DNA of 64,000 nucleotides from Liolophura sinensis (lineage: Eukaryota; Mollusca; Polyplacophora; Chitonida; Chitonidae), in the NCBI RefSeq assembly GCF_032854445.1, contig NC_088300.1, forward strand, positions 43,579,682 through 43,643,681, written 5' to 3'. The notes under the pieces are model-generated. The model was not told the origin of the DNA. It worked only from the letters and a program-made list of their open reading frames with translations, and made no database searches. Positions 3,501-64,000 of the stretch are shown one piece after another. The position numbers and the translations under genes are program-made. Within the stretch, counting starts at the first letter, position 1, and every line of letters begins with the position of its first letter.

Positions 3501-6500
3501 TGGGGCATCCCTGTATACGACAGGTAGGAAAAGGTGAAACAAAGGAGTGTAACTCTACACCTTCACCTTCATTACCTGTTCTCAGCATTTAAAAGATAGA
3601 GATGAGGCGATAATGCCATCACACATGATAGTTTTCTGGTAACTGTACATGTAGTTAATTACTGTACGTGTAGTAATCTGGTTACTGTACATGTAGTTAA
3701 TCTGGTTACTATACATGTAGTTAATCTGCTTACTATACATGTAGTTAATCTGATTACTGAACACGTAGTTATTCTTGTCACTGTACATGTAGTTAATCTG
3801 GTTATTGTACGGGTAGTTAATCTGGTTACTGTACATGTAGTTAATCTGGTTATTGTACAGGTAGTTAATCTGGGTACTGTACATGTAGTTAATCTGGTTA
3901 CTGTACATGTAGTTAATCTGGTTACTATACATGTAGTTAATCTGCTTACTATACATGTAGTTAATCTGATCACTGAACGGGTAGTTATTCTTGTTACTGT
4001 ACATGTAGTTAATCTGGTTACTGTACATGTAGTTAATCTGGTTATTGTACAGGTAGTTAATCTGGGTACTGTACATGTAGTTCATCTGGTTACTGTACAT
4101 GTAGTTAATCTGAATGAATTCAAACATTTATAAACCTCTTTTTTTTCCAGAACATCAAATCATGGAATTTTCATGGATCTTAAAAGACAAGTTTTATTCA
4201 GGTAGACGAAATACTTAGTTTGTTTGTTATTTGTTCTCTTTACAGGTACACTGTTGTTTTGGAGATATTTAAAGAACATGCAAAGACTAAAGAAGCAAAA
4301 CTTCAAGTGGCTTTGGCAGAAATCCCTTACCTAAGGTCAGACCATCGTATCATTCACTAGTGACAAGAGATCTCAGATCTGTTTTCAATCTTCCAAACTT
4401 AGCTTTCAGAAATACAAATCTGTACTGTCCTCAGTTTGTCAAAGCTTTACCCAGGGGCCTCTGTGGCTCAGTTGGCTAACGTACTAGCGCAGCGTAATGA
4501 CCCAGGAGCCTTTCACCAGCGCGGTCGCTGTGAGTCCAGCTCATGCTGGCTTCCTCTCTGGCTGTATGTGGGAAGGACGGCCAGCAACCCTTGATGGTCA
4601 TGGGTTTTCCCCTGGCTCTGCCCAGTTTCCTCCCACCATAATGCTGGCCATTGTCGCATAAGTGAAATATTCTTGAGTATTGCATATAACACCAATCATA
4701 TAAGTAAAATAAAATCAAAGCTTTACCCAATTAAGTCATGTTTCCTTTCTGACAGTACAGAATTCCTACAGTAAATCTGACTTCGTAATTAAGTAGTTCT
4801 TCTTGAGTAATGAAGACCATAACGTTACTCTTAAAATAAATGTATTTAGCTCATCAGCAGCAAGCCAGACCTCGCTTGATCGCCAGTTTTGGATCAAGTC
4901 GGCCACACCGGCATCATCTGACAGAAAGAGAGACTAGTTGAAGATTTTGATTCAAACTATGCAGATTACTCCATTAATAGAGCCATTGACAAGTGTTAGA
5001 GAATTTTACATTATGATTTGGTTTAATAATAAAGACAAAAAGCTACAACCAGCTGTTGTGAAAAAAGAAGATTATCTTATTTTTGGATTGATTTATTTAT
5101 TTGATTGGTGTTTTATGCCGTACTGAAGAAATTTCACTTATACGACGGTGGCCAGCATTATGGTGGGTGGAAACCGGGCAGTTGCCCGGGGGGAAACCCA
5201 TGACCATCCGCAGGTTCCTGACAGATCTTCCCACTCACAGTCTTATTTTTGGTGTTTGTGATTTATGGTCCAAACTGCAGTTTAATACAGACATTTAGAC
5301 AGGTATATATTTGTACATGTATAAGATTTATAGGGTGAATGTGTGATAAATGTCATTCCAGACCCTGGATAATTTGATTTGTATGAGGTATAGGAAATTT
5401 ACAATGTTCAAAACTTAAGTTGATCACAAGTACATTCATTATACTGTGTACTAAAATACTTAAAAGTTGATTAGATGATTTAAATACATGCTTAGTTTCA
5501 GTTGTCAGTACTATTAGAAAATATAATGGTATAAGATTCACAGTAATAAAATATATCACATGTAAATGTAAACACTTCAACAGTTTCTGGAGGCTCGGAG
5601 TGTTAATTGGCATTGGTGTTGTTAACGAATCATATGAGTTCACCAACTTTTGGTCTCAGTAGAAATAAACATAGCTCATGCTGCCCTTTGTAACCATGAC
5701 TGAGAAAAAATTTGTGGAAAGTGCATCCTGATGTGACAAATGAAAATTTTCAAGATGTAATTTTCTTATTGATTACACTGTGCGCCTTTGAAAATATTTT
5801 AAATCCTAGCTAGCCATTTTCTGATTGTATTTATGATGAATTGTTCACTTATAGGAAGACATCAGTATTGTGGGTGGAGAAAAACCCAAGTAATTACAAT
5901 GACAGATGGCTCTTGAGAAGCTTAATAAAGCTTTTGACAATGATTTTTCATTGCTGACAGATCCCGACTGAGGGAAATCCATGAAGGCACTGTGAATAGA
6001 TCAGCAGGAGGCATGCATTATATTGGGGGTTCAGGAGAGACTTACCTGGAGCTGAGACATAGACTTCTTCAGGTAAAGTAACTAGGTCACCATGGATATA
6101 GGCTAGTATATCAGGGTTCAGCAGAGACTTACCTGGAACTGAGACATAGACTTCTTCAGGTAATGTAATTAGGTCACCATGGATATAGGCTATTATATCA
6201 GGGTTCAGCAGAGACTTACCTGGAGCTGAGACAAAGACTTTTTCAGGTGAAGTAACTAGGTCACCGTGGATATAGGCTGTTATATCAGGGTTCAGCAGAG
6301 AGTTACCTGGATCTGAGACATAGACTTCTTCAGGTAAAGTAACTAGGTCACCATGGATATAGGCTAGTATATCAGGGTTCAGCAGAGACTTACCTGGAGC
6401 TGAGACATAGACTTCTTCAGGTAAAGTAATCAGGTCACCAGAGATATAGTATGTCAGGGATCAGTAGAGACTTACCTGGATCTGAGACATAGACTTCTTC

Positions 6501-9500
6501 AGGTAAAGTAATCAGGTCATGAGGGATGTAGTTTATCAGGGTTCAGAAAAGATTTACCTGGAACTGCGACAAAGACTTCTTCAGGTGAAGTAACCAGGTC
6601 TCCAGAGATATAGTATATCAGGGACCAGGACAGACTTACCTGGAACTGAGACAAAGACTTCTTCAAGTATAGTAGCCAACTCATGAATCATGTAGTACTT
6701 CAGGGAACAGGAGAGACTTATATGTACGGTTACCTGGAGGTAAAGTATAGGTGTGGCACGGTGAGGTGTCTTGACTAGTGTCTTTGAAATGGAATTCCAG
6801 CAAAACAACATAACGAGAAGACATTGTAGCATTTGAAGTTATCCTCCTACTTGGACACAGTGTGTATGAAATAAAATTAAACCCAATATATTAAAGAACA
6901 TTTATTAAAACTCTTCTGAATTTGATTGTCTCTTTTTGTCAGGCCAGTCTTAGAGTGAAGTGTCAAGGTTCCACGCTGCAATGGGCAGAGGTTTCAAATG
7001 TCAGGATCATTTTTGAATCGGGTCATGTCAAACATTTTAGAATACTCGGTTTTTCCTCACTATGTGCTCAGGCCAAGTGCAGAATTTGCCAGGGCAGAAT
7101 GAGGTGTCCTATTTGGTGTGTTTACGCATATATGCTAAGACTCAAATGTAATATGAGGCACCACGGGCCTCAGTGACCTAGTGTTTAGCGTGCTAGCACA
7201 GAACAATGACCCAGGAACCAATGCAATTGTTGTGACTTCAAGTCCAAATCGTGCTGACTTCCTCCTCAGTTGTACTTAAGACGGTCTGCCAGCAACATGT
7301 AGATATTCGTTGGTTTCTTCCCCCAGTTTCTTCCCACTGTGATGTTGACCACTGTCGTATAAGCAAAATATTCTTGAATACAACGAAAACTCCAATGAAA
7401 CAAATAAATGAGTACGAGGCATCGGAGTAAAAATAACTGGCACTTGGGCTGGACTGATATGAAGAGACATTGGTATCATTTCACCATAATACCACCAATC
7501 TGCAACACACTGAAGTGGTACATGTATATCCCTCTTGCAGCAGAGGGAGCTTAAGTTGAAGAAGGCCTTGGAGAAGGTGAGGAATCAGAGGCAGATGTTA
7601 CGAGCAAACAGAGCCAGGAGAGACCTACCAGTGGTAGCTGTTGTGGGCTACACCAACTCAGGTAAGTCAGCACAAACTCTGGTAAATCTATGCAAACTCA
7701 TGTATGTCTGTACAATTTCAGGTAGACCTGCCAAAGTCAGGTAAGTCAGCCCAAACTCTGCGCAAACTCAGGTATGTCTGTACATACTCAGGTCTGCACA
7801 CAACTCTGGTAAGTTGCACGACACGGTTAAGTTTGCACAACGTGGGTAAGTCTGCACAACTAGGGGTATGTCTACACAACTCGGGTAAATTTGAACAACT
7901 CGGGTAATCTTGCACAACCTGGGTAAGCTTTCACAACCCGGATATGTCTGTACATCTCAGGTAAATCTACACTACTCAAAGTCTGCACAACCTGGATAAG
8001 TGTACACAACTCTGGTAAGTTTGGCAACTCGCGAAAGTCTACACAACTCGAGTACAACCTGGGTAAATTTGCACAACCCGGGCAAGTCTACACATATCAG
8101 GTAAGTCTGCACAACCCGGGTAAGTCTACACATATCAGGTAAGTCAGCACAACCTGGGTAAGTCTACACATCTCAGGTAAGTCTACACATCTCAGGTAAG
8201 TCTGCACAACCCAGGTAAGTCTACACAACCCAGGTAAGTCTACACAACTCAGGTAAGTCTACACATCTCAGGTAAGTCTACACATCTCAGGTAAGTCTGC
8301 ACAACTTGGATAAGAGTACACAACTCGGGTAAGCCTACACAACTCAGGTAAATCTGTTTGAACTCAGTATGTTTACATGAACTCGGGTAAGTCCAGCTCT
8401 GGTGCATTTTCACAGACACTGGTAACTCTGCGTAAACTCAAGTAAGCATACACAAATTCAGGTAGGTCTGCACTGATTTTAAATCTACACAAACTCAAAT
8501 AAGTCTACATAAAATCACATAAGTCTACACAGACTCCAGTAAGGCTAGACATACTCGGGTATTAAAGTCTATGCCGGCTCTCTCTGGATAATGTTCTACA
8601 TGTGTTCTAAAATGGGGCCATGTGATAGGAGTAAAGCAAAATGTAGAAATTCAGAAAAAATCATTTTGATGGGAACTCATTTCTTTTCAAAGGATGACCA
8701 GCATCTAGGAAATGTAATGTTGTCGAAAAATTATGAATTTATTATTTTGGGCATACATTAAATTCAAGAGAAAAAGGATAAAAAAAAGTACTGCAATACA
8801 ATGACAGTGTACTATACCATTGCGAGTTATTTTGATTTCCCAAAATATGAAGATAATATACCAAGTCAGTATTTGGTTTACTTTTCTTATAGCATTACAT
8901 GTACAAAATGCATAGGTCACAGTTTCATCACCACCCATGATCCCAGCTTATCATGCTCATGAATTCACAGTTTTATCACCCATGATCCAAGCTTACCATT
9001 CTCGTGATTTCACAGTTTTATCACCCGTGATACCAGCTTACCATGCTCATGATTTCACAGTTTTATCACCCGTGATCCAAGCTTACCATTCTCATGATTT
9101 CACAGTTTTATCACCCATCATCCCAGAATGCCATGCTCATGATTTCAGGTAAAACAAGTTTGATCAAGGCACTGACTGGAGACAAAAGCCTGGAGCCTCA
9201 AGATCAGCTGTTTGCCACACTGGATGTGACGGCCCATGCAGGTGTTCTGCCCAATCACATGACAGTTCTCTACGTGGACACTGTGGGCTTTATGTCAGAT
9301 ATTCCCACATCACTCATTGATGCATTCTCCGCTACACTGGAAGATGCTCTTGCAGCTGTATGTTTGCTTGTATTAGTATTTTAATTCTGAAATTGCCCTG
9401 AAGTAGAAAATAAAAGAATTAGTTGCTTCTGAAAGATGGAATGTTAAAACTAGCTTTTGATGAAGATTCAAGGTAATTATAGGTAACTGCTATTTGCTGG

Positions 9501-12500
9501 ACTTCTACATGTGTTCGGTGGGGTTTAAATTGACCTCTGAAATGCAGGTTTATGCTCTTCAGATTTCACCCAGGTAAGGGCTTCCAGATATCAACCTTCC
9601 AGAGGAGTACTTATTCAGGAAAACGATGAAAAAAATCTTACTGTCTTAACAAAGAATTCATTCCTGTTGAAGAAAAATTAAGATTATAACATTAAACAGC
9701 TATGGAGTAAGAAAACAGAAAATCATACATATCAAAGTGGCTGATCCCCTTTATTATAGGTGCAGCACGGATGTAGAGGTATGAACAATGTGTTTGTATG
9801 TTTTAACTAGGATGCTGTGATCCATGTGCGTGACATCAGCCATCCTGACACCCAGGCTCAGAGACATAATGTCCTCACCACCCTACAGTCCATGTTACCA
9901 GAGCAGAAGCTGGCCACGGTGATTGAGGTGTGCAACAAAGCAGATCTCCTCACACAGTGAGTAAGGTTAGAGGGGACCACCTTTAAATAAAGTATGCATC
10001 AGATCACAGTCTACAATTAATTTTCCATTTATTTACTTGTTAGCATTTGGTCTCATAGCACTGTCCTTAAATCTGTGCGCCCCAAAAGCATTGGGCCTGA
10101 TAATTCTTGTCCCCTGACACAACTCCAGTCAAATTGTCCCTAAATCTGTGTGCCCTGAAAGCATTGGGCCTGATAATCCTTGTCCCCTGATACAACTCCA
10201 GTCAAATTGTCCCTAAATCTGTGCGCCCTGAAAGCATTGGGCCTGATAATCCTTGTCCCCTGATACAACTCCAGTCAAATTGTCCCTAAATCTGTGTGCC
10301 CCAAAAGCATTGGGCCCGATGATCCTTGTCCCCTGACACAACTCCAGTCAAATTGTCACTAAATCTGTGTGCCCCAAAAGCATTGGGCCTAATAATCCTT
10401 GTCCCCTGATACAACTCCAGTCAAATTGTCCCTAAATCTGTGTGCCCCAAAAGCATTGGGCCCGATGATCCTTGTCCCCTGATACAACTCCAGTCAAATT
10501 GTCCCTAAATCTGTGTGCCCCAAAAGCATTGGGCCTGATAATCCTTGTCCCCTGACACAACTCCAGTCAAATTGTCCCTAAATCTGTGCGCCCTGAAAGC
10601 ATTGGGCCTGATAATCCTTGTCCCCTGATACAACTCCAGTCAAATTGTCCCTAAATCTGTGCGCCCTGAAAGCATTGGGCCTGATAATCCTTGTCCCCTG
10701 ACACAACTCCAGTCAAATTGTCCCTAAATCTGTGCACCCTGAAAGCATTGGGCCTGATAATCCTTGTCCCCTGACACAACTCCAGTCAAATTGTCCCTAA
10801 ATCTGTGTGCCCTGAAAGCATTGGGCCTGATAATCCTTGTCCCCTGACACAACTCCAGTCAAATTGTCACTAAATCTGTGTGCCCCAAAAGCATTGGGCC
10901 TGATAATCCTTGTCCCCTGACACAACTCCAGTCAAATTGTCCCTAAATCTGTGTGCCCTGAAAACATTGGGCCTGATAATCCTTGTCCCCTGACACAACT
11001 CCAGTCAAATTGTCCCTAAATCTGTGTGCCCCAAAAGCATTGGGCCTGATAATCCTTGTCCCCTGACACAACTTCAGTCAAATTGTCACTAAATCTGTGT
11101 GCCCTGAAAACATTGGGCCTGATAATCCTTGTCCCCTGACACAACTCCAGTCAAATTGTCACTAAATCTGTGTGCCCTGAAAACATTGGGCCTGATAATC
11201 CTTGTCCCCTGACACAACTCCAGTCAAATTGTCCCTAAATCTGTGTGCCCCAAAAGCATTGGGCCCGATGATCCTTGTCCCCTGACACAACTCCAGTCAA
11301 ATTGTCCCTAAATCTGTGTGCCCTGAAAACATTGGGCCTGATAATCCTTGTCCCCTGACACAACTCCAGTCAAATTGTCCCTAAATCTGTGTGCCCCAAA
11401 AGCATTGGGCCTGATAATCCTTGTCCCCTGACACAACTCCAGTCAAATTGTCCCTAAATCTGTGTGCCCTGAAAACATTGGGCCTGATAATCCTTGTCCC
11501 CTGACACAACTCCAGTCAAATTGTCCCTAAATCTGTGTGCCCTGAAAGCATTGGGCCTGATAATCCTTGTCCCCTGACACAACTCCAGTCAAATTGTCCC
11601 TAAATCTGTGTGCCCCAAAAGCATTGGGCCCGATGATCCTTGTCCCCTGATACAACTCCAGTCAAATTGTCCCTAAATCTGTGTGCCCCAAAAGCATTGG
11701 GCCTGATAATCCTTGTCCCCTGACACAACTCCAGTCAAATTGTCCCTAAATCTGTGTGCCCTGAAAACATTGGGCCTGATAATCCTTGTCCCCTGACACA
11801 ACTCCAGTCAAATTGTCCCTAAATCTGTGTGCCCTGAAAGCATTGGGCCTAATAATCCTTGTCCCCTGATACAACTCCAGTCAAATTGTCCCTAAATCTG
11901 TGTGCCCCAAAAGCATTGGGCCCGATGATCCTTGTCCCCTGATACAACTCCAGTCAAATTGTCCCTAACTCTGTGTGCCCCAAAAGCATTGGGCCTGATA
12001 ATCCTTGTCCCCTGACACAACTCCAGTCAAATTGCCCCTAAATCTGTGCGCCCTGAAAGCATTGGGCCTGATAATCCTTGTCCCCTGATACAACTCCAGT
12101 CAAATTGTCCCTAAATTTGTGCGCCCTGAAAGCATTGGGCCTGATAATCCTTGTCCCCTGATACAACTCCAGTCAAATTGTCCCTAAATCTGTGCACCCT
12201 GAAAGCATTGGGCCTGATAATCCTTGTCCCCTGACACAACTCCAGTCAAATTGTCCCTAAATCTGTGTGCCCTGAAAGCATTGGGCCTGATAATCCTTGT
12301 CCCCTGACACAACTCCAGTCAAATTGTCCCTAAATCTGTGTGCCCCAAAAGCATTGGGCCTGATAATCCTTGTCCCCTGACACAACTCCAGTCAAATTGT
12401 CCCTAAATCTGTGTGCCCTGAAAACATTGGGCCTGATAATCCTTGTCCCCTGACACAACTCCAGTCAAATTGTCCCTAAATCTGTGTGCCCCAAAAGCAT

Positions 12501-15500
12501 TGGGCCTGATAATCCTTGTCCCCTGACACAACTTCAGTCAAATTGTCACTAAATCTGTGTGCCCTGAAAACATTGGGCCTGATAATCCTTGTCCCCTGAC
12601 ACAACTCCAGTCAAATTGTCACTAAATCTGTGTGCCCTGAAAACATTGGGCCTGATAATCCTTGTCCCCTGACACAACTCCAGTCAAATTGTCCCTAAAT
12701 CTGTGTGCCCCAAAAGCATTGGGCCTGATAATCCTTGTCCCCTGACACAACTCCAGTCAAATTGTCCCTAAATCTGTGTGCCCTGAAAACATTGGGCCTG
12801 ATAATCCTTGTCCCCTGACACAACTCCAGTCAAATTGTCCCTAAATCTGTGTGCCCTGAAAGCATTGGGCCTGATAATCCTTGTCCCCTGACACAACTCC
12901 AGTCAAATTGTCCCTAAATCTGTGTGCCCCAAAAGCATTGGGCCCGATGATCCTTGTCCCCTGATACAACTCCAGTCAAATTGTCCCTAAATCTGTGTGC
13001 CCCAAAAGCATTGGGCCTGATAATCCTTGTCCCCTGACACAACTCCAGTCAAATTGTCCCTAAATCTGTGTGCCCTGAAAACATTGGGCCTGATAATCCT
13101 TGTCCACTGACACAACTCCAGTCAAATTGTCCCTAAATCTGTGTGCCCTGAAAGCATTGGGCCTAATAATCCTTGTCCCCTGATACAACTCCAGTCAAAT
13201 TGTCCCTAAATCTGTGTGCCCCAAAAGCATTGGGCCCGATGATCCTTGTCCCCTGACACAACTCCAGTCAAATTGTCCCTAAATCTGTGTGCCCCAAAAG
13301 CATTGGGCCTGATAATCCTTGTCCCCTGACACAACTCCAGTCAAATTGTCCCTAAATCTGTGTGCCCTGAAAGCATTGGGCCTGATAATCCTTGTCCCCT
13401 GATACAACTCCAGTCAAATTGTCCCTAAATCTGTGCGCCCTGAAAGCATTGGGCCTGATAATCCTTGTCCCCTGATACAACTCCAGTCAAATTGTCCCTA
13501 AATCTGTGCACCCTGAAAGCATTGGGCCTGATAATCCTTGTCCCCTGACACAACTCCAGTCAAATTGTCCCTAAATCTGTGTGCCCTGAAAGCATTGGGC
13601 CTGATAATCCTTGTCCCCTGACACAACTCCAGTCAAATTGTCCCTAAATCTGTGTGCCCCAAAAGCATTGGGCCTGATAATCCTTGTCCCCTGACACAAC
13701 TCCAGTCAAATTGTCCCTAAATCTGTGTGCCCTGAAAACATTGGGCCTGATAATCCTTGTCCCCTGACACAACTCCAGTCAAATTGTCCCTAAATCTGTG
13801 TGCCCCAAAAGCATTGGGCCTGATAATCCTTGTCCCCTGACACAACTTCAGTCAAATTGTCACTAAATCTGTGTGCCCTGAAAACATTGGGCCTGATAAT
13901 CCTTGTCCCCTGACACAACTCCAGTCAAATTGTCACTAAATCTGTGTGCCCTGAAAACATTGGGCCTGATAATCCTTGTCCCCTGACACAACTCCAGTCA
14001 AATTGTCCCTAAATCTGTGTGCCCCAAAAGCATTGGGCCCGATGATCCTTGTCCCCTGACACAACTCCAGTCAAATTGTCCCTAAATCTGTGTGCCCCAA
14101 AAGCATTGGGCCTGATAATCCTTGTCCCCTGACACAACTCCAGTCAAATTGTCCCTAAATCTGTGTGCCCCAAAAGCATTGGGCCCGATGATCCTTGTCC
14201 CCTGACACAACTCCAGTCAAATTGTCCCTAAATCTGTGTGCCCTGAAAACATTGGGCCTGATAATCCTTGTCCCCTGACACAACTCCAGTCAAATTGTCC
14301 CTAAATCTGTGTGCCCCAAAAGCATTGGGCCTGATAATCCTTGTCCCCTGACACAACTCCAGTCAAATTGTCCCTAAATCTGTGTGCCCTGAAAACATTG
14401 GGCCTGATAATCCTTGTCCCCTGACACAACTCCAGTCAAATTGTCCCTAAATCTGTGTGCCCTGAAAGCATTGGGCCTGATAATCCTTGTCCCCTGACAC
14501 AACTCCAGTCAAATTGTCCCTAAATCTGTGTGCCCCAAAAGCATTGGGCCTGATAATCCTTGTCCCCTGACACAACTCCAGTCAAATTGTCCCTAAATCT
14601 GTGTGCCCTGAAAACATTGGGCCTGATAATCCTTGTCCCCTGACACAACTCCAGTCAAATTGTCCCTAAATCTGTGTGCCCCAAAAGCATTGGGCCTGAT
14701 AATCCTTGTCCCCTGACACAACTCCAGTCAAATTGTCCCTAAATCTGTGTGCCCCGAAAACATTGGGCCTGATAATCCTTGTCCCCTGACACAACTCCAG
14801 TCAAATTCCTGATAGGGGTTGACTGATGAAATTTTTCTCTACATTGATGAACAGCTGATCAGGATCAAACCCACCCAGGCAGAGGCTGGTCAAACAAGAG
14901 TTTTTACTACTTTAGCCTAGTGTGCGTCTGCTACCATTCTCTGAAAAACACACAAATTTATACCTGGAATGAAATTTTGAAGCACAAATGATACCACTTA
15001 ACAAGCAGAAGATAGTGATGAAGGGCAGACCAAAGGAGCAAAAGAAAATATATCTAACAACAGCATGGGATTACATTCATCCTTCCTGACACGGAAGCAT
15101 TAATTGTGGACTGTAGCCATCATCTGAAAAGCCAGTTCATGCAGATGGTTTTCACAATTTTTTTTACGTTTTTTTAATATGTGGAAAATGCAAGAAACAT
15201 GAAGGCTTTAGTTTGAACTTTTTGGGCCATATTGAACAGGCAGAAGAGTCATGGATTTGCTTTAGAAGCTAATCATTTTAGGCTGTTATGTTTCCACATT
15301 AATACGGATATAGATGTAGTACTGCGGGTATGCTCATGCTTAACAAAAAATTCCAGCAATCTGAGCATGATTTGCAGCTGTCAAGTTACAGCTTGTTTAA
15401 AGAGGTATAAGAAGTCCACCACAGCACCTATCATCATATGCATTCAATTCCCTGTAAAAAATATCCAGAAAACCATATTCGGAATCAGCAGAAAATGCTG

Positions 15501-17521
15501 TGTTAGATGATGCATACTTTTTACAGAGGTCTGTTCTCAGTGTACCAGGGTGAAACTCTTTGGGGTTTGAACCAGCTCCACGTACCTCTACGTCTTGGCT
15601 AACACTATGGGGTGGAGCCATACAAGGTTCTATTTGATTTTCTTGTAGTAGCGCCAGAGTTCTGCCATCTCACACCTCAGGCACTTTCTCCTGCGAAAGT
15701 ACACATCAACACAAATCTGCCCACTACAATTTCAGTGGCCTCACCTTCATTCCTTAGAAGATTGCAGGTTTTGAAAATTTTCAACCGTGTGAAAACCTGT
15801 AATGGTGACTGCATCCCCGTTTGTAAACAATGACTAGTGACTTTCATAGCATTTGGCCCCAATTAAAACTTTGCAGAGTTGAATTTAATGGTGCCCTCTG
15901 ATCACACAGGTGGACCAGGTTTTTAGCTACTAGTTTTCGTCTTTGTCAGTGAAATATTGCAGCAATTGCAGGCTTCAAAATGAACTAGGTTAAGGCGGCT
16001 TCAGTGGGAACTCTCCACACATGGGAGGCAGTATTGTTTACATTCACCACGGCCATCATTGTTCACAGTCACCACGGCCATTGTTTACATTCACCATGGC
16101 CATCATTGTTTACATTCACCTCGGCCATTGTTTACATTCACCATGGCCATCATTGTTTACATTCATCACAGCCATCCTTGTTTACATGCACCAAGGCCAT
16201 CATTATGGATAGTTTCATTTTAACATGGAGCATTGATCATCAAGGCTGGTAATCTCCCCAGGAATGAAGGTGAGACCGCCAAAGTGAGAAAAATGTCTGA
16301 GGCTGTACTCCAAAAACATCACATATAACGTTGTGTTGATCTACCCATGTACTGTTAGGTGTAGAGGCACATGGAGCTAGGGTTTGAACCAACGACCAAA
16401 AGCATATTTATTTAGTGTCTGCTTGGTAGTAGACTGCCAGTACATCCTACCCTGTCGCATTAGCTCCATCTTGTCAAATAACAGCTTATTGAAATTCATG
16501 ATCAGTCATTTAGTGCTGTGGATTGATGTCATTACCCATCTCATTTTGGCATCAGGTGTGGGCATTAAGCCATTATCATTCCTTCATTTTGGCATCAGGT
16601 GTGGCGTTAAGCCATTATCATTCCTTCATTTTGGCATCAGGTGTGGCGTTAAGCCATTAACATTCCTTCATTTGGCATCAGGTGTGGTGTTAAGCCATTA
16701 TCATTCCTTCATTTTGGCATCAGGTGTGGCGTTAAGCCATTATCATTCCTTCATTTTGGCATCAGGTGTGGCGTTAAGCCATTAACATTCCTTCATTTTG
16801 GCATCAGGTGTGGCGTTAAGCCATTATCATTCCTTCATTTTGGCATCAGGTGTGGCGTTAAGCCATTATCATTCCTTCATTTTGGCATCAGGTGTGGCGT
16901 TAAGCCATTATCATTCCTTCATTGTGGCAGTGCAGATTGCGATGTTGGACTTTTGCTTTATGTGCAGGACACTGCCTCGATGGCAGAGTTAAGAAGTCAA
17001 CTTTTTTGAATCTATTTACATGTACATGTAGTTTTCAGTTCTGGAATCAGTAAAAATTAATTTCTTAAAGAAGTTTCCTGGTTTACTACGCCCACTACAG
17101 TTTTCTCCACCTGTGTAAGTGGTCACCACCATCGTAGGAGTGAATAGTTTTTAAGATGTACATGTGATAAAATAATGAAGAACGAAATAAATAAAGAAAG
17201 AAGTCTTCCCTCTCTAGCATATCTGATTATTGCATGTTCTGTTATTGTAGTTGTACAACTTCCATAGTAACATAAATTACAATTCTTTCTGTCTCAGCAA
17301 ATAGCCATGTTGTTTCATAAGGGTTCAGGAAGTATTTGGTATACAAATAGTAATGCAGTTTTTCCACTCAACAGTCCCCTTGATTCCCAGGACACGTTGA
17401 TCTCCGCCACCGCAGGTTTAGGGCTACGTGATTTGTTACACCTGGTAGAGAAGACTGTGCTAGAGGAGACAGGCATGTCCATCAGACGTCTCAAGGTTCC
17501 TATGGGTGGTTCACATCTCAG
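465..17521 (+). CDS. GTPBP6: GTPBP6, HflX-family GTPase (partial, nine exons)
   Basis: Nine exons (465-560, 1962-2068, 3342-3523, 4246-4335, 5961-6072, 7541-7661, 9149-9357, 9811-9956, 17375-17521) join in phase to about 403 residues. They follow the order of the HflX family: an N-terminal HflX domain (VKWGP, LQLAEACALVDS, NTRYIFGRG, EAKLQVALAEIPYLR), a glycine-rich linker with a coiled-coil-like basic helix, then the G domain. Visible G motifs are G1 GYTNSGKT (split by an intron), G3 DTVGF, G4 NKAD and G5 SAT. Known role of the family: ribosome-splitting or ribosome-assembly GTPase; animal GTPBP6 acts on the mitochondrial ribosome. The first exons, with any mitochondrial presequence, lie left of the window. 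The last exon (expected after SHLR, a short region of about 50 residues) was not found before IDH1. The introns are unusually loaded with tandem arrays. It is convergent with IDH1. Confidence 0.9.
561..1961 (+). repeat. intronic minisatellite of CAGCACAGTTGTCACAGC type
   Basis: From about 575 to 1620 the intron is a degenerate array that mixes cagcacagttgtcacagc, acatgtatctcagcac and cagttatctcagcac modules, giving combined periods near 15 to 30 bp. Several frames stay open through it, which produces long but meaningless reading frames with QHSCHS-type peptides. The rest, to 1961, is ordinary intron. Confidence 0.9.
1962..2068 (+). CDS. GTPBP6: GTPBP6 exon, HflX N-terminal domain
   Basis: Acceptor cattgatag, donor CACAAG|gtagta. 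Reads EVKWGPMKRTL...LQLAEACALVDSIPNWKVIHK, phase 2 in (two bases, codon completed from the previous exon) and phase 0 out. The pattern VKWG...LQLAEA matches the HflX N-terminal domain. Confidence 0.88.
2069..3341 (+). other. GTPBP6: GTPBP6 intron
   Basis: AT-rich intron. I see no array, SINE or further exon in it; the reading frames at 2289-3308 have no recognisable product. Confidence 0.6.
3342..3523 (+). CDS. GTPBP6: GTPBP6 exon, HflX N-terminal domain
   Basis: Acceptor attgccttag, donor GACAG|gtagg. Reads KTKSLNTRYIFGRGMLDEL...LWGIPVYD, phase 0 in and phase 2 out. FGRG is the conserved glycine motif of the HflX domain. An alternative acceptor (gcaag) 12 bases downstream would drop four residues and also keep the frame. 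Confidence 0.88.
3640..4115. repeat. 24-bp tandem repeat in GTPBP6 intron
   Basis: About 20 copies of a 24-bp unit, gttactgtacatgtagttaa plus tctg. Because 24 is a multiple of three and the unit has no stop in two minus-strand frames, it yields spurious reading frames with an eight-residue YMYSNQIN repeat. Confidence 0.93.
4246..4335 (+). CDS. GTPBP6: GTPBP6 exon, end of HflX domain
   Basis: Acceptor ctctttacag, donor CTAAG|gtcag. Reads YTVVLEIFKEHAKTKEAKLQ...ALAEIPYL. The motif T.EAKLQVALAE is the signature helix of HflX proteins. Phase 2 in, phase 2 out. Confidence 0.9.
4454..4714 (+). mobile_element. tRNA-derived SINE (family 1), with target-site duplication
   Basis: Complete copy. The head carries an A-box-like TGGCTCAGTTGG, here gtggctcagttggctaac. 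The B-box region reads GTGAGTCCAGC in this copy; other copies show GGTTCAAGTCC. The body runs through gctcatgctggcttcctctc and tttcctcccaccataatgctgg to the tail gtgaaatattcttgag...aaataaaa. It is flanked by a perfect 15-bp duplication, tcaaagctttaccca, at 4439-4453 and 4715-4729. Confidence 0.93.
5087..5240 (-). mobile_element. SINE family 1, 5'-truncated, reverse orientation
   Basis: Tail first (atttatttatttgattggtg), then the body to ccgcaggttcctgacag, where it is truncated before the tRNA-like head. It is flanked by a 12-bp duplication, tcttatttttgg, at 5075-5086 and 5241-5252. Confidence 0.88.
5961..6072 (+). CDS. GTPBP6: GTPBP6 exon, linker with GGSGE motif
   Basis: Acceptor ttgctgacag, donor CTTCAG|gtaaag. 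Reads RSRLREIHEGTVNRSAGGMH...GGSGETYLELRHRLLQ, the glycine-rich linker between the N-terminal and G domains (compare GSGES in vertebrates). Its last about 47 bases are copied into the array that follows. Confidence 0.9.
6026..6725. repeat. 87-bp array made of exon end plus donor
   Basis: The unit begins at gggttcagcagagacttacc in the exon, runs through the exon end and donor (cttcttcag|gtaaagtaac) and about 40 intron bases. Unit starts are at about 6027, 6114, 6201, 6288 and 6375 (exact 87-bp steps), then 6457, 6538 and later ones that are shorter and more diverged. Most copies keep the GT of the donor. Confidence 0.93.
7169..7412 (+). mobile_element. SINE family 1, old diverged copy
   Basis: Recognisable from gggcctcagtgacctagtg through caatgacccaggaacc, gtgctgacttcctcc and cgtataagcaaaatattc to aacaaataaatga. 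It has many substitutions compared with the copy at 4454. It may be flanked by an imperfect gaggca duplication. Confidence 0.8.
7541..7661 (+). CDS. GTPBP6: GTPBP6 exon ending in the P-loop
   Basis: Acceptor cctcttgcag, donor CAACTCAG|gtaagt. Reads QRELKLKKALEKVRNQRQML...RRDLPVVAVVGYTNSG. This is the basic helical linker followed by strand 1 and most of the Walker A (G1) motif, which the next exon completes as KT. Phase 0 in, phase 1 out. Confidence 0.93.
7662..8560. repeat. 19-bp array carrying a 5' splice site in each unit
   Basis: About 45 units with the consensus aactcaggtaagtctacac. The exon-intron junction itself (ccaactcag|gtaagtcagc) is the first unit, so the repeat is built from the last bases of the exon plus the donor. 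Downstream of the real donor I count ten perfect CAGGTAAGT, plus several GGGTAAGT variants. Confidence 0.93.
8930..9148. repeat. about 44-bp array abutting an acceptor
   Basis: Five units of ttcacagttttatcaccc plus tgatccaagcttaccattctc plus atga, ending exactly at the acceptor (catgctcatgatttcag|GTAAAAC) of the next GTPBP6 exon. Each unit holds a ttcacag acceptor-like site. Confidence 0.88.
9149..9357 (+). CDS. GTPBP6: GTPBP6 exon, core of the G domain
   Basis: Acceptor gatttcag, donor GCAGCT|gtatgt. Reads KTSLIKALTGD...LFATLDVTAHAGVLP...VLYVDTVGFMSDIP...AFSATLEDALAA. It completes G1, and it carries the switch I threonine region (FATLD) and G3 (DTVGF), typical of HflX. Phase 1 in, phase 0 out. 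Confidence 0.94.
9811..9956 (+). CDS. GTPBP6: GTPBP6 exon with G4 NKAD
   Basis: Acceptor ttttaactag, donor CACA|gtgagt. Reads DAVIHVRDISHPDTQAQ...MLPEQKLATVIEVCNKADLLT. NKAD is the guanine-specificity motif G4. HVRD.SHP is typical of HflX. Phase 0 in, phase 2 out. Confidence 0.93.
10061..14807. repeat. 73-bp satellite with higher-order structure
   Basis: About 65 head-to-tail copies of a 73-bp unit (ctaaatctgtgtgccc, then attgggcctgataatcc, then ttgtcccctgacacaac and tccagtcaaattgtcc), inside the GTPBP6 intron between the NKAD and G5 exons. Marker variants recur at fixed spacing. The rare acttcagtca occurs at 11071, 12531 and 13845, and gcctaataat near 10388, 11848 and 13162. The steps are 1460 bp (20 units) and 1314 bp (18 units), so blocks of 18-20 units were themselves duplicated. 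There is no open reading frame and there are no spacers. Confidence 0.97.
14808..16020. other. GTPBP6 intron, low information
   Basis: Between the satellite and the next array I see no exon. A tRNA-like ggtttgaaccagc motif at about 15567 may be a SINE scrap. The reading frames of 60 to 90 residues here have no recognisable product. Confidence 0.5.
16021..16205. repeat. short array of cattcaccatggccatcatt units
   Basis: About seven alternating copies of a 24-bp unit (attgtttacattcaccatgg plus ccatc) with variants such as tcaccacggccatt. Confidence 0.85.
16545..16925. repeat. 42-bp tandem repeat
   Basis: Nine copies of ttcattttggcatcaggtgt plus ggcgttaagccattatcatt plus cc, with exact 42-bp spacing (for example 16583 and 16625). 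The length is a multiple of three, so the open reading frame across it is a by-product. Confidence 0.93.
17375..17521 (+). CDS. GTPBP6: GTPBP6 exon with G5
   Basis: Acceptor ccactcaacag, donor ATCTCAG|gtaagg. Reads HPLDSQDTLISATAGLGLRD...VEKTVLEETGMSIRRLKVPM...SHLR. SAT is G5; GLGL followed by a helix is the usual end of the G domain. Phase 2 in and out, so one more exon is required. Confidence 0.9.
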
Positions 17522-17699: not shown

Positions 17700-18842
17700 G
17701 AACGGTGACTTGATTGATCCCATGTGGTGCGGATTAGCATCCCAAACCTCCCTGTCACTGACTTAATTGATCCTATGTGGTGCAGATTAGCATCCCAAAC
17801 CTCCCTGTCACTGACTTGATTGATCCCATTTGGTGCGGATTGGCATCCCAAACCTCCCTGTCACTGACTTGATTGATCCCATATGGTGCTTATTGGCATC
17901 CCAAACCTCCCTGTTGATTGACCCCATGTGGTGCGGATTGGCATCCCAAACCTCCCTGTTGATTGACCCCATTTGGTGCAGATTAGCATCCCAAACCTCC
18001 CTGTCGCTGACTTGATTGATCCCATGTGGTGCGGATTAGCATCCCAAACCTCCCTGTCGCTGACGTGATTGATCCAATGTGGTGCGGATTAGCATCCCAA
18101 ACCTCCCTGTCACTGACTTGATTGATGCCATGTGGTGCGGATTAGCATCCCAAACCTCCATGAAGCTTACGAATGAAATGATTTTTTTTCTCTGTTTTGT
18201 TTTCTTTTATAAATGGGGAAGGGCAGTAATCTTTTCCTTTTCCGTCTTCTTGTTGCCAACTCAGGACTGTGTGAAAACAACCAACTTTATTAAACAAACC
18301 TGACTTGATTGATCCAATGTGGTGCGGATTAACATCCCAAACCTCCCTGTCACTGACTTGATTGATCCCATGTGGTGCGGATTAGCATCCCAAACCTCCC
18401 TGTCACTGACTTGATTGATCCCATGTGGTGCGGATTGGCATCCCAAACCTCCCTGTTGATTGACCCCATGTGGTGCAGATTGACATCCCAAACCTCCCTG
18501 TCACTGACTTGATTGATCCCATGTGGTGCAGATTGGCATCCCACACCTCCCTGTCACTGACTTGATTGATCCCATGTGGTGCGGATTAGCATCCCAAACC
18601 TCCCTGTCACTGACTTGATTGATCCCATGTGGTGCAGATTAGCATCCCAAACCTCCCTGTCACTGACTTAATTGATCCTATGTGGTGCGGATTAGCATCC
18701 CAAACCTCCATGAAGCTTACGAATGAAATGATTTTTTTTTCTCTGTTTTGTTTTCTTTTATAAATGGGGAAGGGCAGTAATCTTTTCCTTTTCCGTCTTC
18801 TTGTTGCCAACTCAGGACTGTGTGAAAACAACCAACTTTATT
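17700..18842. repeat. 53-bp repeat arrays with a duplicated flank
   Basis: Two arrays (17700-18165 and 18300-18710) of a 53-bp unit, ttgattgatcccatgtggtg plus cggattagcatcccaaacct plus ccctgtcactgac; some units are 43 bp. Both arrays are followed by the same block of about 150 bp (18160-18296 and 18705-18842, from atgaagcttacgaatgaaat to aacaaccaactttatt). This shows that array and flank were duplicated together. Confidence 0.93.
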
Positions 18843-18987
18843 ATGAAACTTTAAGCTCTTTACTGTAATTTATCTCACGCCACCAAGGAAAAAAAAATGC
18901 AGACCGACTGACCCAACCTTAAAAATAGTCCTAGTGTCCTGCAATACACAACTCTTTAATGATGGCCTCACCAGTCTCAAAATTCTT

Positions 18988-21747: not shown

Positions 21748-32631
<10,884 letters not shown>

Positions 32632-46041: not shown

Positions 46042-46048
46042 GGGCTTA

Positions 46049-48560: not shown

Positions 48561-48964
48561 GGATACTCATGTATACGTATATACACCATGTATAAACATG
48601 GAATTATGAATGAATTACAAGCGTCTTTCAGTGCCTCATACACATACGTATGACCTTATGTATAGGCCTAACGCATCGCACACTGGGGAACTTTGGCATC
48701 AAAACTCTATGATTAAATCTACGTCTCTATACAGATATGCTATATATTGTGTAAACATGAGTTCATGTACCTACTAAATCACATCAAAACCACCTACTAA
48801 ATCACATACAAAACCTCTTGTCTGTGATTGTAAGATGCTAAATACATAAGCAAACAACTACAGGCTGGTCACGGATACGACGAATGTCCTTTTTGGCCAC
48901 TTGACTGACCTTTGGTCTAGCAGAGCTATCGCAGCCATTGCAAATTAGACCCCATAATGTTTAA

Positions 48965-55500: not shown

Positions 55501-55509
55501 CTTTGTATT

Positions 55510-55743: not shown

Positions 55744-55824
55744 TCATCTAAAATATACACATCTACACTATTCCATTTGTGGCATTTCATAAAAAAACAC
55801 TTGGCAAGTTTAAAAGTGAAGATC

Positions 55825-56009: not shown

Positions 56010-59000
56010 CTGTCAATCAACAACAAGCCTTTATTAACAAAGCCTACTACTACATGTTACACATGTATAACATGACAGGATATCCATCAATCACACTGAT
56101 CGTATCATAAACTCACAATGCCTGACACTAAAATAAGTAACACTAAAGCACAAAAAGGCAAAAGTATTCAATATCAAGTTCTGTTATGTTAATTGCTCTC
56201 ACAAACATTACTTTGTGCACATGTACAATTCAAGGATTTCTCAGGTTCAACTTTCAGTTTCATTGCTATAGTATTTAATGGTAAAGCATTTAATCATAGA
56301 ACAATGCCAATGCTAACTTTAAACCAAAATAACGATGCTGTGTCTTACCAAGGTCAAGAGCTTCTATCTGGAATTTGTCTATTTGATTTTTCTCAAAAAG
56401 ATCCCGAAAACGTTGTTTGAGCGGGCGTTTGCCGGTGTCCCCATTTGTCCCGTAAATAATGATAGAGACATTAGCATCTGTACCAGCTCCTGGCAAGTCC
56501 CCGGTTATCACTACTACCTCATACTTCACAGCAGCTAGTTCTGGCAACAACAACAACATTAGCACACATATAATACTGCAATTGATTCTCTGTAATAGGT
56601 ATGGTGCTGTCTATGATGTCCTTAAATAACAACACATTTCTCTAGAAGATGTAAGTTTATATGTGTCTTTAAATAACAAATCGCTACTCTGTGAGGTATT
56701 GTTTAAACTCACATGCAGTGATGTTAACAACCCTTACAGACATGAGGTGTACATCTCAGTGTGATGTACGGATGAGGTGTATATGGGGTGTACGCCTCAT
56801 GTACACCTTAGTGTGATGTATAGATGAGGTGTGCACCCTATCTATATTATCTGAGGTGTACTGTACCTCAAGTACACCTTAGCCATATGCCTCTACCTCA
56901 GGTGTACCTCAGGAAATTGGAAAAAAATCTGCACTTAGACATGTTAGAAGATGTACCTCAGGTACACTTCAGAAACTTTGAAAGTTAAAAAAATTAATGA
57001 TGTACGTCAGGTACACCTTGGTAGCTTTGAGAGCTTTTGAGCAGTTTTAGAACATGAGATGATGTATCTCAAATACACCTCAGCAACTTTTAAAAAAAAA
57101 TCAACACTTAGAAGATGTACCTCAGGTACACCTTAGAAACTTTGAAAGCTAAAAAATGTAAATGATGTACCTCAGGTACACCTCAGCCACTTTTCAAGTT
57201 TTAAAACAAGAGATCAAATTTATATTTCACTTCAGACAAATTGGTGAGTGCAAAATTACAAATACTTTTGTGCAAAAGATTATTCAAGATGGGTACCCTG
57301 AACAACATGCATATATATTCCAGGCTGTGGGAAATCACACAATGACTGATGCTTTCTGGGACAGAATTTGTAACATGTTTGGGCACATGAACAGCCCTAA
57401 CAGGCATAGAAAAGGAGTAGAACTCATTTTTAATCAAGCAGGTAGAAAGCCTCATGCAAATTTATATCATTGTTGTTGTTGTAAGTGATCTAAGATTTAC
57501 AGATACTGTAGACAAAGGACAGCATGCACTTACAAACTTGCCTGTAATTTATACAGCTAATGTTTAAGTGTTTTGAGTTTGTTTTGTATCAAAATAAAAA
57601 GTGAACATCCATATTGCCTATAAACATGTACCTCAGCTATGCCTCACTTGTACCTCAGATACACCTCAGGCATCATATTTTTTACCCAATATTTACAGGG
57701 TACAGAACAGGTACACCTTGAATACACCTCAGATACACTTCAAGTATACCTTAGACACACCTCAGTTCAGATATGCTACACTCCAATGGTACACCTCAGG
57801 AAGTATCTTAAGTATACCTCTAGTACACCTTATGAGAGTGAGCGAACGTGTTACTTCGTGAGATGTAGAATAAATGTAATGATCTTGTAGATCACTACAT
57901 AATGTATGTAGTACATCTTATATTTTGGTGACCGTTAAATAACACATGTGTACCATACACTGTGAGGTGTATACCATATATACCATGATATAATTTTATT
58001 TATTTATTTATTTGATTGGTGTTTTACGCTGTACTCAAGAATATTTCACTTATACGACGGCGGCCAGCATTATGGTGGAAGGAAACCGGGCAGAGCACGG
58101 GTGAAACCCACGACCATCCGCAGGTTGCTGGCAGACCTTCCCACTTACGGCCGGAGAGGAAGCCAGCATGAGCTGGACTTGAACTCACATTGGTGAGGGG
58201 CTTCTGGGTCATTACGCTGCGCTAGCGCGCTAACCGACTGAGCCACGGAGGCCCCACCATGATATAAAGACTCCCACCTAACCTCAGGCACATCTACACT
58301 GTACTTCTGATCAACTCCATGTCCTATCTGTGTTTCAATAAATGGATTCCACGACCTATATTTGTGTATTCAGGCTAACTCAGCACCCACAGTGTAATCA
58401 CTCAGAGGAATCCTTAATATTACTGAATACTTTTGTATGCTACACCCCAGCGATCCCTGACATCAGAAGGCTTAATCACATAAATTAGGACAAGTTTTCC
58501 AGGTTAGGACTGATGCTTACGTCTGACTAAGGCCACTTGACTCTCCTCCACAGACTTCACCTCCAACTCTTTGGCGTCTCGCCGTGAGATTCGATCGCTG
58601 ATAGGAATCCAGTCCTTACACATGAACACATACCTGAAGGAGCAAACATGCGGCAGATATTTATATACAACATCATAGCCTCGAAAAAATCATTTTAGAA
58701 ATAGAATTTCTTACATTAGTACTTTGATCATTTTAACCTAAGCATGTCAATTCAAAGAAAACTCAAAATGGCATGCTTACCACATCAGCCAGGTTAAATA
58801 ATATAGCTGTAAGTAAATTTTCATCAGAAACCATTATTCCAAAGGAGACTTCCATTAAACTACAATGTTAAATCTGCAGCACGATCTCTGGTGTTACTTG
58901 CTCTGAAATTTGTGTATCAGAGATGAGCACACTTACTTGGCACCAGTTGATGTGTCAGTGATGGTCACTTGATGACAGTGCCACTGGGCCTCTCTGGCTC

Positions 59001-62000
59001 CTCTGTCACTCAGGGGTTTGTCTTCACGCTCCACAGCACCCACAATGCACTTCTCCAGTTTCCCAAGATTCCTGGTGGAGTACTTGAAGTAATCCGTCTG
59101 TCCTCTACAAGAGAAAACATTAAAAAGCCAAAAATTCAACCAAATACAGCATCATCGTTCATATATACCAAATTTAACAAACTCTACCTGATTTTAGCCA
59201 CCATAAACCTGACCTGAATATAAATGAAACACCTCGACCAAAAGAATAATTGCATTAACTGTTACCTGCGGAGTATTTTGTTCTGAGCACTGTTCTCCAG
59301 GATGTATGGTTTGGAAGTGCGCACAGAGCCTTCCAGCAGAATCCAGCCATTGTGGATTGTCCCTCCTTCTTTCTTGTCTGTTGTGATTACCTCTATCTCA
59401 TAAGCTGTATAAACAATGGAGAGTTTTAATAAATACGTATTGGTCTTACTCTGGACAATTAGCAAGTTACCATGATCATCAATAGCATGTACATACACAT
59501 GAACTAATGGTTTGGGTACAGGTTCATACACTCTCTCTGTCTCTATGCTTTCTATCAAAAATACAAAAAGATTTGTAGACAAAATAACTTTGGCAGAGTC
59601 TAGTTACATGTAGCTCATCATAGGGTCACTATGAGTTTTTGGTGAAGTTTGAATCTACTCTTTTCAGAAAAAAGTAAGCGATGGCCTCAAAAGTGTCATT
59701 TTAAGGCCCTGTTATGCTTCTGAAAGCATATTTTTACAGGTGCCTGGTTTCCAACCCACCATACTGCTGGCCGTCGTCGTATAAGTGAAATATTCTTGAG
59801 TATTGTGTAAAACACCAATCAAATAAATAAGCAAATATTTTTACAGGTCAAACTTTTTACAATAAAAAACATCACTTTCATGCAGCCTTTGCTAAGGGTG
59901 TATGCTGCATGAGTGTGTGTGAATGTGACTTACTGACTCTCCCTGGCTGTATGCTGTGTAAATGAGTGTAAATAAGGCTTACTGACTCTCCCTCTTCCTG
60001 GAAGTATGCTGCATGAATGTGTTTGAATGTGACTTACTGACTCTCCCTCTCCCTGGTAGTATGCTGTGTGAATGTTTGTCAATGTGACTTACTGACTCTC
60101 TCCTTTTCCCTGGCTGGTGAGTCAGGACTGTTCTGGTTAGCACAGGTCAACTCCCTTACTATCTGTTTGTCATCTTCACGCGTTGATAACCATTTGTCAC
60201 AGGGGAACATGAACTTCTTCTTGGTGTTTAGGTCTGTCACCTCGATGTAGGACAGGTGCCATGCAGCTCCCAAACCTGACAAATACACAAATATACCTAC
60301 TTGTATCACTGAACTTCAAATGATTACAGGTTTACACTGTAGTATATCAATCCTCACAACATGATGACCCAAACCTCTTATAACTATGTCACAAAAGCTA
60401 CTGAAATAAAAAAACAATACGTGTGTTACATTAGTCATCTAAAAGACACGTGATGACATCCAAAGAATAATATATATTTAAAAAAAAAATATCCATCAAA
60501 AGCTGCAAATAAAATAGTTTTTTTTTTTTTTGAAGTTTTCTAAGTCAGTTAAAAGGAATTATAGTATTGGACTCTAAAATGGTATGTTACAGACTCGAAC
60601 TCCCCCATATGAAAATCCAAAATTTTCTGCAGTGACCTGTTATGACTCGCTGACTTAAATAATAAAACAAACTATTTTCGAAGAAAGCATCCTTAACAGA
60701 TGTACAGACAACATTTGTAACCTCCATATTTTGCTAGATGCCATCGATAAAAGACAAATCCCAAGCATCAAAACAGCATTTCTTACTTTCATTCAAAATA
60801 GTGGGGAATAAAGACTTTCATGTTATCAGATAATGAGTACCTTTATTGTCATGCCAGACCCTGAGTTTACTGAGCTCTCCCACGCTCAGTATATCAGAGA
60901 TGGTGAACTCATCCAGCTGATCATTGTCAAACGGACTTTTGTTTGTCTCAGAGCTCTTCAGGTGGAGATCTCCTGAGTTACCATTCTCCCCAAACAGGCT
61001 GATGAAGACGTTAGCATCCGTGCCGGCACCTCTGATAGCTGATGTCTTTACCTTCACCTTGTAGGAAGTCACTGAGCAGAGAAACACAGCAAAGGGCATG
61101 AGATACAATTTATTTATTGCAACTTAATTGTTCCAATTTATGCCCTCCCAGGAGTTAATTTTTAAGTTTACCTATGAAAATGAATTTACGTATACTATAA
61201 TCTGAGAATATCTTTGGATATAAATATGTACACTATTAAACCATGGTCTCTACAAAAGGATTTATCTACAATACTGACTTCAAAGATTGCAGATATTAAG
61301 AGTTAGGAGTTTTTAAAAGTTCTCCACTCACTTCCTATAACTTGTTTCCCTTTGATGAAAGCTGGTAGGTCTCGCACAATTTTCCCATCTTCTGCTTTCT
61401 TGCGACTGAACCACTTGTTACATTTGAACACTGTCAAGTCCCCTGTTTCCATGTTACGGAAGTCCACCTGGTCAACAGTACAGGTGTCAAAGGTAAAGAT
61501 GAGGCAAAGATCGTAACAGTGTGGGCCTATCTACCACAACAGAAACTTTGTGTACATCAATTATCAAGAATATCTACTAAATCAGCAAAATAACTTCAAA
61601 AAATTAATTCTGCTGATCTCAGTATCTGAACTTTAATCAAGTCATCCACAGGAGGTTGAATTTCGTTGGAGTTTTTTCTTAAGTTATTTTATTAAGTCAA
61701 GGGATCAGCCAGGTTAAGAAAATGGGAATGTTTGACATGGGGAATGCCATTTATGACAAGTTTTGCTCAAGACAGTGTGTTGAATTTCAATGTGAAATAT
61801 TCTTTGAGTCTAGACACTGACTCATCATGTACAGATGCCACCATGTATGTTGTCTTGTTAACAAAGTGCATTTGACATTAACTGATACGATGTATGTATT
61901 AGAGAAAGGCAAAACATTGATGAACTTGATACAAACAGCTGTTAAGAGTTAAATGCTAGTCTGAAATAAGTGTCTATTTACCTTTTCCAGATACCAGTCT

Positions 62001-62817: not shown

Positions 62818-63119
62818 CTGAAACACAGAATCATAAGAACATCATTACACAGACTTGAATACAGTACATGTAGGTCCTTCCCCTTACAACTTCTGATGTA
62901 CGCTGGCTGGAGACAGCTTGGAAGGCTACTACTTCATGATATTCCAATCACTTCACACATGGGTAACACATATTCACTTGAAACCTATGTACCTGAACCT
63001 TGGTTAAACCTATCAACTTACACACACCTATCTTGCTACATGCAGCTGCTGTTTGCATGTATTATTTAGTGATGAAACTATTTCTTCACATCATGATTAA
63101 CTCCACTCACATAAGAACA

Positions 63120-64000
63120 TGATACTAGTGTCACTTTCCATTATAAACATCCAGCTAATTCTACATGTGCCATGTCACACCCAACTCCTGTCAGGTCCTA
63201 TTTGAGTGTGTGACTTACTGGGTCTGTAGAACATGGTACTAGTGCCATCCTCCACTGTGAACACCCAGCTAATTCTACATGTGCCATGTGACACCCAACT
63301 CCTGTCAGGTCCTATTTGAGTGTGTGACTTACTGGGTCTGTAGAACATGGTACTAGTGCCATCCTCCACTGTGAACACCCAGCTAATTCTACATGTGCCA
63401 TGTCACACCAAACTCCTGTCAGGTCCTGTTTGAGTGTGTGACTTACTGGGTCTGTAGAACATGGTACTAGTGCCATCCTCCACTGTGAACACCCAGCTAA
63501 TTCTACATGTGCCATGTGACACCCAACTCCTGTCAGGTCCTATTCGAGTGTGTGACTTACTGGGTCTGTAGAACATGGTACTAGTGCCATCCTCCACTGT
63601 GAACACCCAGCTAATTCTACATGTGCCATGTGACACCCAACTCCTGTCAGGTCCTATTTGAGCATGTGACTTACTGGGTCTGTAGAACATGGTACTAGTG
63701 CCATCCTCCACTGTGAACACCCAGCTAATTCTACATGTGCCATGTGACACACATAACTCCTGTCAGGTCCTATTTGAGTGTGTGACTTACTGGGTCTGTA
63801 GAACATGGTACTAGTGCCATCCTCCACTGTGAACACCCAGCTAATTCTACATGTGCCATGTGACACACATAACTCCTGTCAGGTCCTATTTGAGTGTGTG
63901 ACTTACTGGGTCTGTAGAACATGGTACTAGTGCCATCCTCCACTGTGAACACCCAGCTAATTCTACATGTGCCATGTCACACCCAACTCCTGTCAGGTCC
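63120..64000. repeat. 114-bp array made of LOXHD1-like exon end plus donor
   Basis: Seven units plus a diverged one at the left, with steps of 114 bp (tgacttactg at 63211, 63325, 63439, 63553, 63667), then 116 bp (63783, 63899). On the minus strand each unit reads agctgggtgttcacagtgga, ggatggcactagtaccatgt, tctacagaccca|gtaagtcac. In frame this is SWVFTVEDGTSTMFYRP, and its phase fits the exon 62657-62817. The array runs past the window, so the genuine exon lies outside or is one of these units. Confidence 0.92.

Follow-up and report, generated by a model that had tools for sequence, protein, structure and literature searches.

Minisatellites that span exon/intron boundaries have been described in amphioxus under the name 'mirages', and in the cited sections of that work they can occupy either boundary (PMC3087553). 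The cases presented there are Adh3 and the globins BflGb6 and BflGb9 (PMC3087553), and an excerpt of a second source adds PGBD5 and troponin C (PMC3902484). According to the same excerpts, unit lengths range from 10 to about 160 bp, many splice signals are intact, and splicing is reportedly undisturbed (PMC3087553, PMC3902484). A related process is intron gain by tandem duplication of a segment that carries AG/GT (a slash marks the junction), for which the cited portion of the source gives potato RdRp and fission yeast genes with several copies of a repeated 24-bp AGGT exonic segment (PMC4974935).

Six arrays in the introns of three unrelated genes on both strands (GTPBP6, IDH1 and a LOXHD1-like gene) were confirmed by Tandem Repeats Finder and by reading of the sequence in a 64-kb window, that is, the whole stretch of DNA analysed, from the chiton Liolophura sinensis (Mollusca). 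Each lay within tens of bases of the position given in an earlier note on this DNA. As in the amphioxus mirages, tandem copies span the exon/intron boundary in the five arrays whose exon lies in the window, and many, though not all, of the copies keep their splice signals (7 of 11 in the 22-bp array). The arrays have the structure by which mirages are defined, and we class them as mirage-type arrays from a further phylum; the kind is already described in amphioxus, a literature that the earlier note had missed. Among the matches listed from the open-access literature, no title reported a boundary-spanning array in a mollusc. The chiton cases all lie at donors, whereas mirages, in the sections cited, occur at both boundaries, and five or six cases fall within 64 kb of a mollusc genome, whereas the host of the mirages is a cephalochordate. 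The same sections describe length polymorphism and somatic instability in amphioxus, whereas the chiton arrays are known from one sequence. They also describe concerted evolution inside the mirages with the cluster edges excluded, beside which stand the repeated A-B-C unit order of one chiton array and the diverged intron-side copies of two others.

The likeness to intron gain, as far as the cited portion of that source goes, is that the duplicated segment carries AG/GT (PMC4974935). The chiton copies, however, extend the 5′ ends of introns that are already accounted for and no new intron was seen: exon order, phase and protein were all explained with no extra intron between copies. Ordinary intronic minisatellites share repeat turnover, multi-unit duplication and diverged ends with these arrays, and nine arrays, none of which crosses a boundary, occur in introns of these three genes. 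The boundary arrays differ from them in a founding unit that spans coding exon and donor.

Gene models and array structure

The exon models of the three genes were drawn from reading phase and splice signals, and arrays were detected by running Tandem Repeats Finder over the window. The spliced IDH1 model was identical to a deposited L. sinensis protein (P0003) at 410 of 410 positions, and it aligned with a solved cytoplasmic isocitrate dehydrogenase over residues 3-409 (entry 1t09, which we take to be the human enzyme). The GTPBP6 model contained the GTP-bdg_N, GTP-bdg_M and MMR_HSR1 domains of an HflX-type GTPase and matched the deposited L. sinensis protein P0123 with 397 identities in 402 aligned positions. 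Of the five gapped residues, four precede exon 3354-3523 and one precedes exon 7544-7661; they fit alternative acceptor choices and not alternative donors. The modelled acceptor of exon 3354-3523 differs from that of the deposited protein, and exon 7544-7661 has a 3-nt acceptor choice at which the deposited protein carries one extra Gln at the exon start. Because the deposited GTPBP6 protein ends at exon 17375-17521, the donor after 17521 is doubtful, and 28 donors is a safer total for the three genes than 29. The C-terminal part of GTPBP6 proteins from four relatives gave no significant tblastn match in the window, a weak test since exon 17375-17521 was missed too. A run of N follows near 18988. 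The modelled part of the LOXHD1-like gene contained four PLAT/LH2 domains; this model rests on exon reading and on those domains, and the comparison with deposited proteins covered IDH1 and GTPBP6.

Table 1. Exons and arrays in the window (positions counted from its first base; a slash marks the exon/intron junction)
Feature	Positions	Strand	Structure	Basis
GTPBP6 exon	5961..6072	+	last 46 nt part of the 87-bp unit; donor CTTCTTCAG/GTAAAG	exon model, phase, deposited protein P0123
87/82-bp array (GTP87)	6027..6718	+	46 nt exon end plus 41 (or 36) nt intron start; 8 donor copies
GTPBP6 exon	7544..7661	+	ends CCAACTCAG/GTAAGT	exon model, deposited protein
19-20-bp array	7651..8556	+	about 42 anchored donor copies, type ACAACTCAG/GTAAGTCTAC
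45-bp array	8932..9147	+	abuts acceptor of next GTPBP6 exon (starts 9149); acceptor self-match score 14
IDH1 penultimate coding exon	23030..23192	-	source of the 94/96-bp unit	identical to deposited protein P0003
94/96-bp array (IDH95)	22493..23116	-	about 84-86 nt exon end plus about 10-12 nt intron start; 6 donor copies CATGAACAG/GTACGTTAG
IDH1 exon	24016..24156	-	ends CTCTGTGG/GTAAGT	exon model, deposited protein
22-bp array	23785..24020	-	11 donor copies, type ACTTGTGG/GTAAGTCAACT
LOXHD1-like exon (PLAT domain gene)	60093..60275	-	donor GAGAGTCA/GTAAGT	exon model, PLAT domain match
55-bp array	59937..60113	-	about 20 nt exon end GGAGAGTCA/ plus 35 nt intron; 4 donor copies
114/116-bp array (LOX114)	63114..64000	-	unit CAGACCCA/GTAAGTC; 7 donor copies; runs off the window

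The arrays had been noted as starting at the donor, but at all five junctions with an authentic exon in the window the start lies inside the exon, reaching 46, 11, 87, 5 and 21 nt into it for the 87-, 19-, 96- (IDH95), 22- and 55-bp units, respectively. The authentic donors follow positions 6072 and 7661 on the forward strand and, on the reverse strand, lie at the low-coordinate boundary of the exons that begin at 23030, 24016 and 60093; the phase of each of the five junctions fits the next exon. A unit composed of exon end and donor, as had been claimed for all six, was found in these five; LOX114 shows the same structure with its exon and its own donor beyond 64000, and by reading it appears phase-compatible with the next exon. 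The array given as about 53 bp at 59905-60118 was present with a period of 55 bp according to Tandem Repeats Finder. The proportion of about six in some 30 donors had a fair total, and the count here was five of 29 modelled donors (28 being safer), with the donor of LOX114 outside the window. The constant sense orientation had been offered as evidence; it follows from tandem duplication and adds no weight.

Some array ends were set by hand. Tandem Repeats Finder placed the 87-bp array at 6027-6674 with 7.6 copies, and the end was extended to 6718 by eye, while the 19-20-bp array joins two program rows (7651-8356 and a tail at 8480-8556). The final three units of the 87-bp array are set apart as a group by a common 5-nt deletion, and the first three copies in the intron are close to the authentic intron part (0.91-1.0); the low resemblance of the distal copies is partly an alignment effect of the unaligned 82-bp units.

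Probable array growth and choice among donor copies

We consider it probable, at roughly 0.8, that these arrays are boundary-spanning minisatellites of the mirage type that expanded through repeat turnover and are tolerated as part of the intron. The starting event would have been a short tandem duplication across the end of an existing exon and its 5′ splice site, followed by growth into the intron, presumably by slippage or unequal exchange. The exon-attached copy would be held by its coding role, and the deposited models of IDH1 and GTPBP6 splice at this copy; the other copies would be intron, probably neutral, and free to vary, to homogenise and to lose GT. With its exon half held while its intron half drifts, the first copy may repeatedly seed the array. 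The exon came first, since what the units carry from it is protein-coding sequence that relatives also have.

The units of IDH95 repeat in the order A-B-C-A-B, a sign of multi-unit duplication, and both LOX114 and GTP87 carry diverged copies at the intron-side end; the unit order of IDH95 together with the diverged end of LOX114 shows repeat turnover. When the variable columns of the intronic copies were divided into exon and intron parts, three of four arrays varied less in the exon part, which is what repeated seeding from a fixed exon would produce: 0/57 against 7/59 in LOX114 (p 0.013), 10/46 against 15/41 in GTP87 (p 0.16) and 2/20 against 11/35 in the 55-bp array (p 0.10). The order was reversed in IDH95 (6/86 against 0/10, p 1.0), and only one of the four comparisons fell below 0.05; the 19- and 22-bp units were too short for this division. 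In the intronic copies of IDH95 the residue before Met-Thr would be Phe, against Ser in the real exon; of 102 protein records that match the motif, 41 have Phe at this site, 37 have Ile and 4 have Ser. The intronic copies may therefore preserve an older state of the exon.

Use of the first donor, which had been proposed to make the extra copies tolerable, held at the annotation level for four array junctions in IDH1 and GTPBP6. Because use of a later donor would change the protein, the deposited proteins imply the first donor at all four, as read from protein models that may themselves be predictions. In test genes with a duplicated donor, splicing often prefers the copy nearer the intron, which speaks against such first-donor tolerance. 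Above the score threshold there were 9, 32, 6, 10 and 6 donor rows in the 87-, 19-, 96-, 22- and 55-bp arrays, two of the last being out of register. With the authentic donor included, donors equal to it made up 6 of 6 in IDH95 (identical over 16 bases), 11 of 32 rows in the 19-bp array (CAG/GTAAGT) and 7 of 10 in the 22-bp array (TGG/GTAAGT). Many downstream copies thus score as high as the authentic donor, and the choice of the first is not explained by the nine-base score.

Reading through the authentic donor led to the first in-frame stop at +6, +80, +100, +5 and +11 nt in the 87-, 19-, 95-, 22- and 55-bp arrays, and nearly all read-throughs met a stop or a frame shift. Copies in the 19-bp array nevertheless lie at +20, +40, +60 and +79, before the stop at +80, with the one at +60 in frame, and IDH95 has a copy at +94, before the stop at +100, with the frame shifted. 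Use of a downstream donor in these two arrays would thus not always be punished by a stop.

Placement at donors and rival explanations

One alternative is chance: the introns are so rich in minisatellites that some arrays fall on exon ends. Arrays with a period of at least 10 cover 35% of intron bases overall (53% in GTPBP6, 19% in IDH1 and 5% in the LOXHD1-like gene). At a threshold of 18, a strong local repeat of the site's own 30-mer within the intron was found at 5 of 29 donors and 0 of 28 acceptors (1 of 28 acceptors at the lowest threshold), and random intron positions exceeded the donors with 402 of 1217 (33%), in a measure whose positions are not independent and to which a few very long arrays, such as 10062-14807, contribute heavily. 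The picture was different when the 14 arrays in introns bounded by two modelled exons were each placed at random within their own intron, with an overhang of up to about one unit: donor overlaps numbered 5 against 0.66 expected (P about 1.1e-4, approximate since array ends were merged by hand and random seeds were not fixed) and acceptor overlaps 0 of 14 against 0.66 expected. An estimate from founding units (19 Tandem Repeats Finder rows, a few arrays counting as two, and 30 donors) gave 0.73 expected, with P 1.1e-4 for the six observed and 9.5e-4 for five when LOX114 was left out. The placement test treats an array as one event, and we judge it the fairer measure of where arrays are born. 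The earlier claim that chance would not favour donors accordingly stands for placement within introns and not for base coverage. Chance is an unlikely account, given also that the units contain coding sequence and were thus founded on the boundary, and that one array spans a donor in the LOXHD1-like gene despite its low array content. The enrichment of arrays at donors is itself suggestive, since it comes from a single window picked after the pattern had been seen. For the same reason there is some doubt about a donor-linked hotspot, at which transcription- or splicing-coupled events such as breaks or template switching start tandem duplications at 5′ splice sites more often than in the rest of the intron, the arrays being the trace they leave. 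Such a hotspot is compatible with mirage-type growth and would add a cause to it; it is a real possibility, though we lean against it. It would account for both the excess over placement and the founding-unit result, and the units differ in length and sequence, so that the events were taken as independent. Against it stand the lower base coverage at donors than at random intron positions and the nine non-spanning arrays, which show no significant donor bias: 11 of 14 intron arrays lay nearer the donor than the acceptor (p 0.057), but a general 5′ bias was rejected, as only 6 of 9 did so once the boundary-spanning arrays were removed (p 0.51). The R-loop or spliceosome-linked breaks proposed in the earlier note found no support, as GC skew at array donors did not differ from that at other donors (p 0.93, 5 vs 23). 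Exploratory comparisons of the 100 nt around donors (5 vs 23) gave a GC content of 0.476 at array donors and 0.410 at the others (p 0.006) and no difference in TA skew (p 0.12). Selection against duplicated acceptors may also explain part of the donor/acceptor asymmetry, though not the excess over the intron interior; such a filter is conceivable because duplicating an acceptor could bring extra exon sequence into the mRNA. It would not be absolute, since BflGb6 of amphioxus has an acceptor-side mirage in the section cited (PMC3087553). A broader proposal, that 5′ splice sites in chitons, and perhaps in other repeat-rich invertebrates, are hotspots of minisatellite birth through a transcription or splicing process, with the exon as a fixed master re-seeding the array and introns growing from their 5′ ends, is one that we put forward tentatively and rather doubt. 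The interpretation in the earlier note was, overall, partly supported.

Two further accounts concern the copies themselves. They could be functional clusters of splice sites, kept to recruit U1 snRNP, to buffer loss of the authentic donor or to suppress premature polyadenylation. The full consensus is kept in many copies, and in all six arrays the nine donor columns varied less than the remaining columns of the unit (donor/rest 0.079/0.148, 0/0.034, 0.037/0.138, 0/0.033, 0.044/0.092 and 0.187/0.256, the first value for the rest being inflated by unaligned 82-bp units). However, 21-68% of the nine-column windows in the same arrays were equally or less variable, and donor columns are therefore not special; GT is lost in 4 of 11 copies of the 22-bp array, and many copies of the 19-bp array are degenerate. 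Selection on the donor copies was rejected on this per-column comparison, in which the donor had no special protection, and a functional role is improbable. Alternatively, the donors could have been recruited from a pre-existing array by intron sliding, with array copies supplying ready-made donors, instead of the array having grown from the exon. This is barely credible, because the exon-derived portion of the units is coding sequence that relatives conserve, the alignment of the IDH1 model with the solved cytoplasmic enzyme runs across the junction, and both the IDH1 and the GTPBP6 model align with deposited proteins.

A donor excess that held across the whole genome would tie the birth of minisatellites to splice sites, offer a route for intron lengthening and for new exons or introns, and provide natural ladders of tandem donors for asking how the cell picks among equal 5′ splice sites. 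If it fails genome-wide, the arrays would be tolerated repeats in a repeat-rich genome. The occurrence in a mollusc would show that the amphioxus mirages are not a cephalochordate oddity.

Other arrays and elements in the window

Several further arrays were seen. At 10062-14807, 4.7 kb of one GTPBP6 intron is taken up by a single 73-bp minisatellite (65 copies, 95% matches), and the GTPBP6 arrays at 574-1555 and 3623-4112 start 13 and 99 nt past a donor and do not reach the exon. The 45-bp array at 8932-9147 had been considered as an acceptor-spanning case and was dropped, because by eye its unit is free of exon sequence. At 17706-18294 and 18300-18844 a 53-bp array plus its downstream flank is present twice in tandem (by eye), and arrays here therefore also move as larger blocks.

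Six inverted-repeat pairs, mostly nested, surround the first IDH1 coding exon at 30958-34579 and resemble a large foldback element; the arms of the longest pair (30958-31158 and 34379-34579) are 201 nt long and 91% identical. Two long open frames, 36844-39807 on the forward and 43945-46131 on the reverse strand, are paralogues in opposite orientation with a 200-residue stretch that is 76.5% identical; neither gave a significant Pfam match (best E 0.08), and the frame at 36844-39807 carries an Asn-Ser-Ser-Pro-type repeat. A dispersed SINE-like element with a CAATCAAATAAATAAA-type tail was recognised by eye in both orientations at 4450-4700, 31325-31600, 33580-33850, 48405-48570 and 57985-58260.
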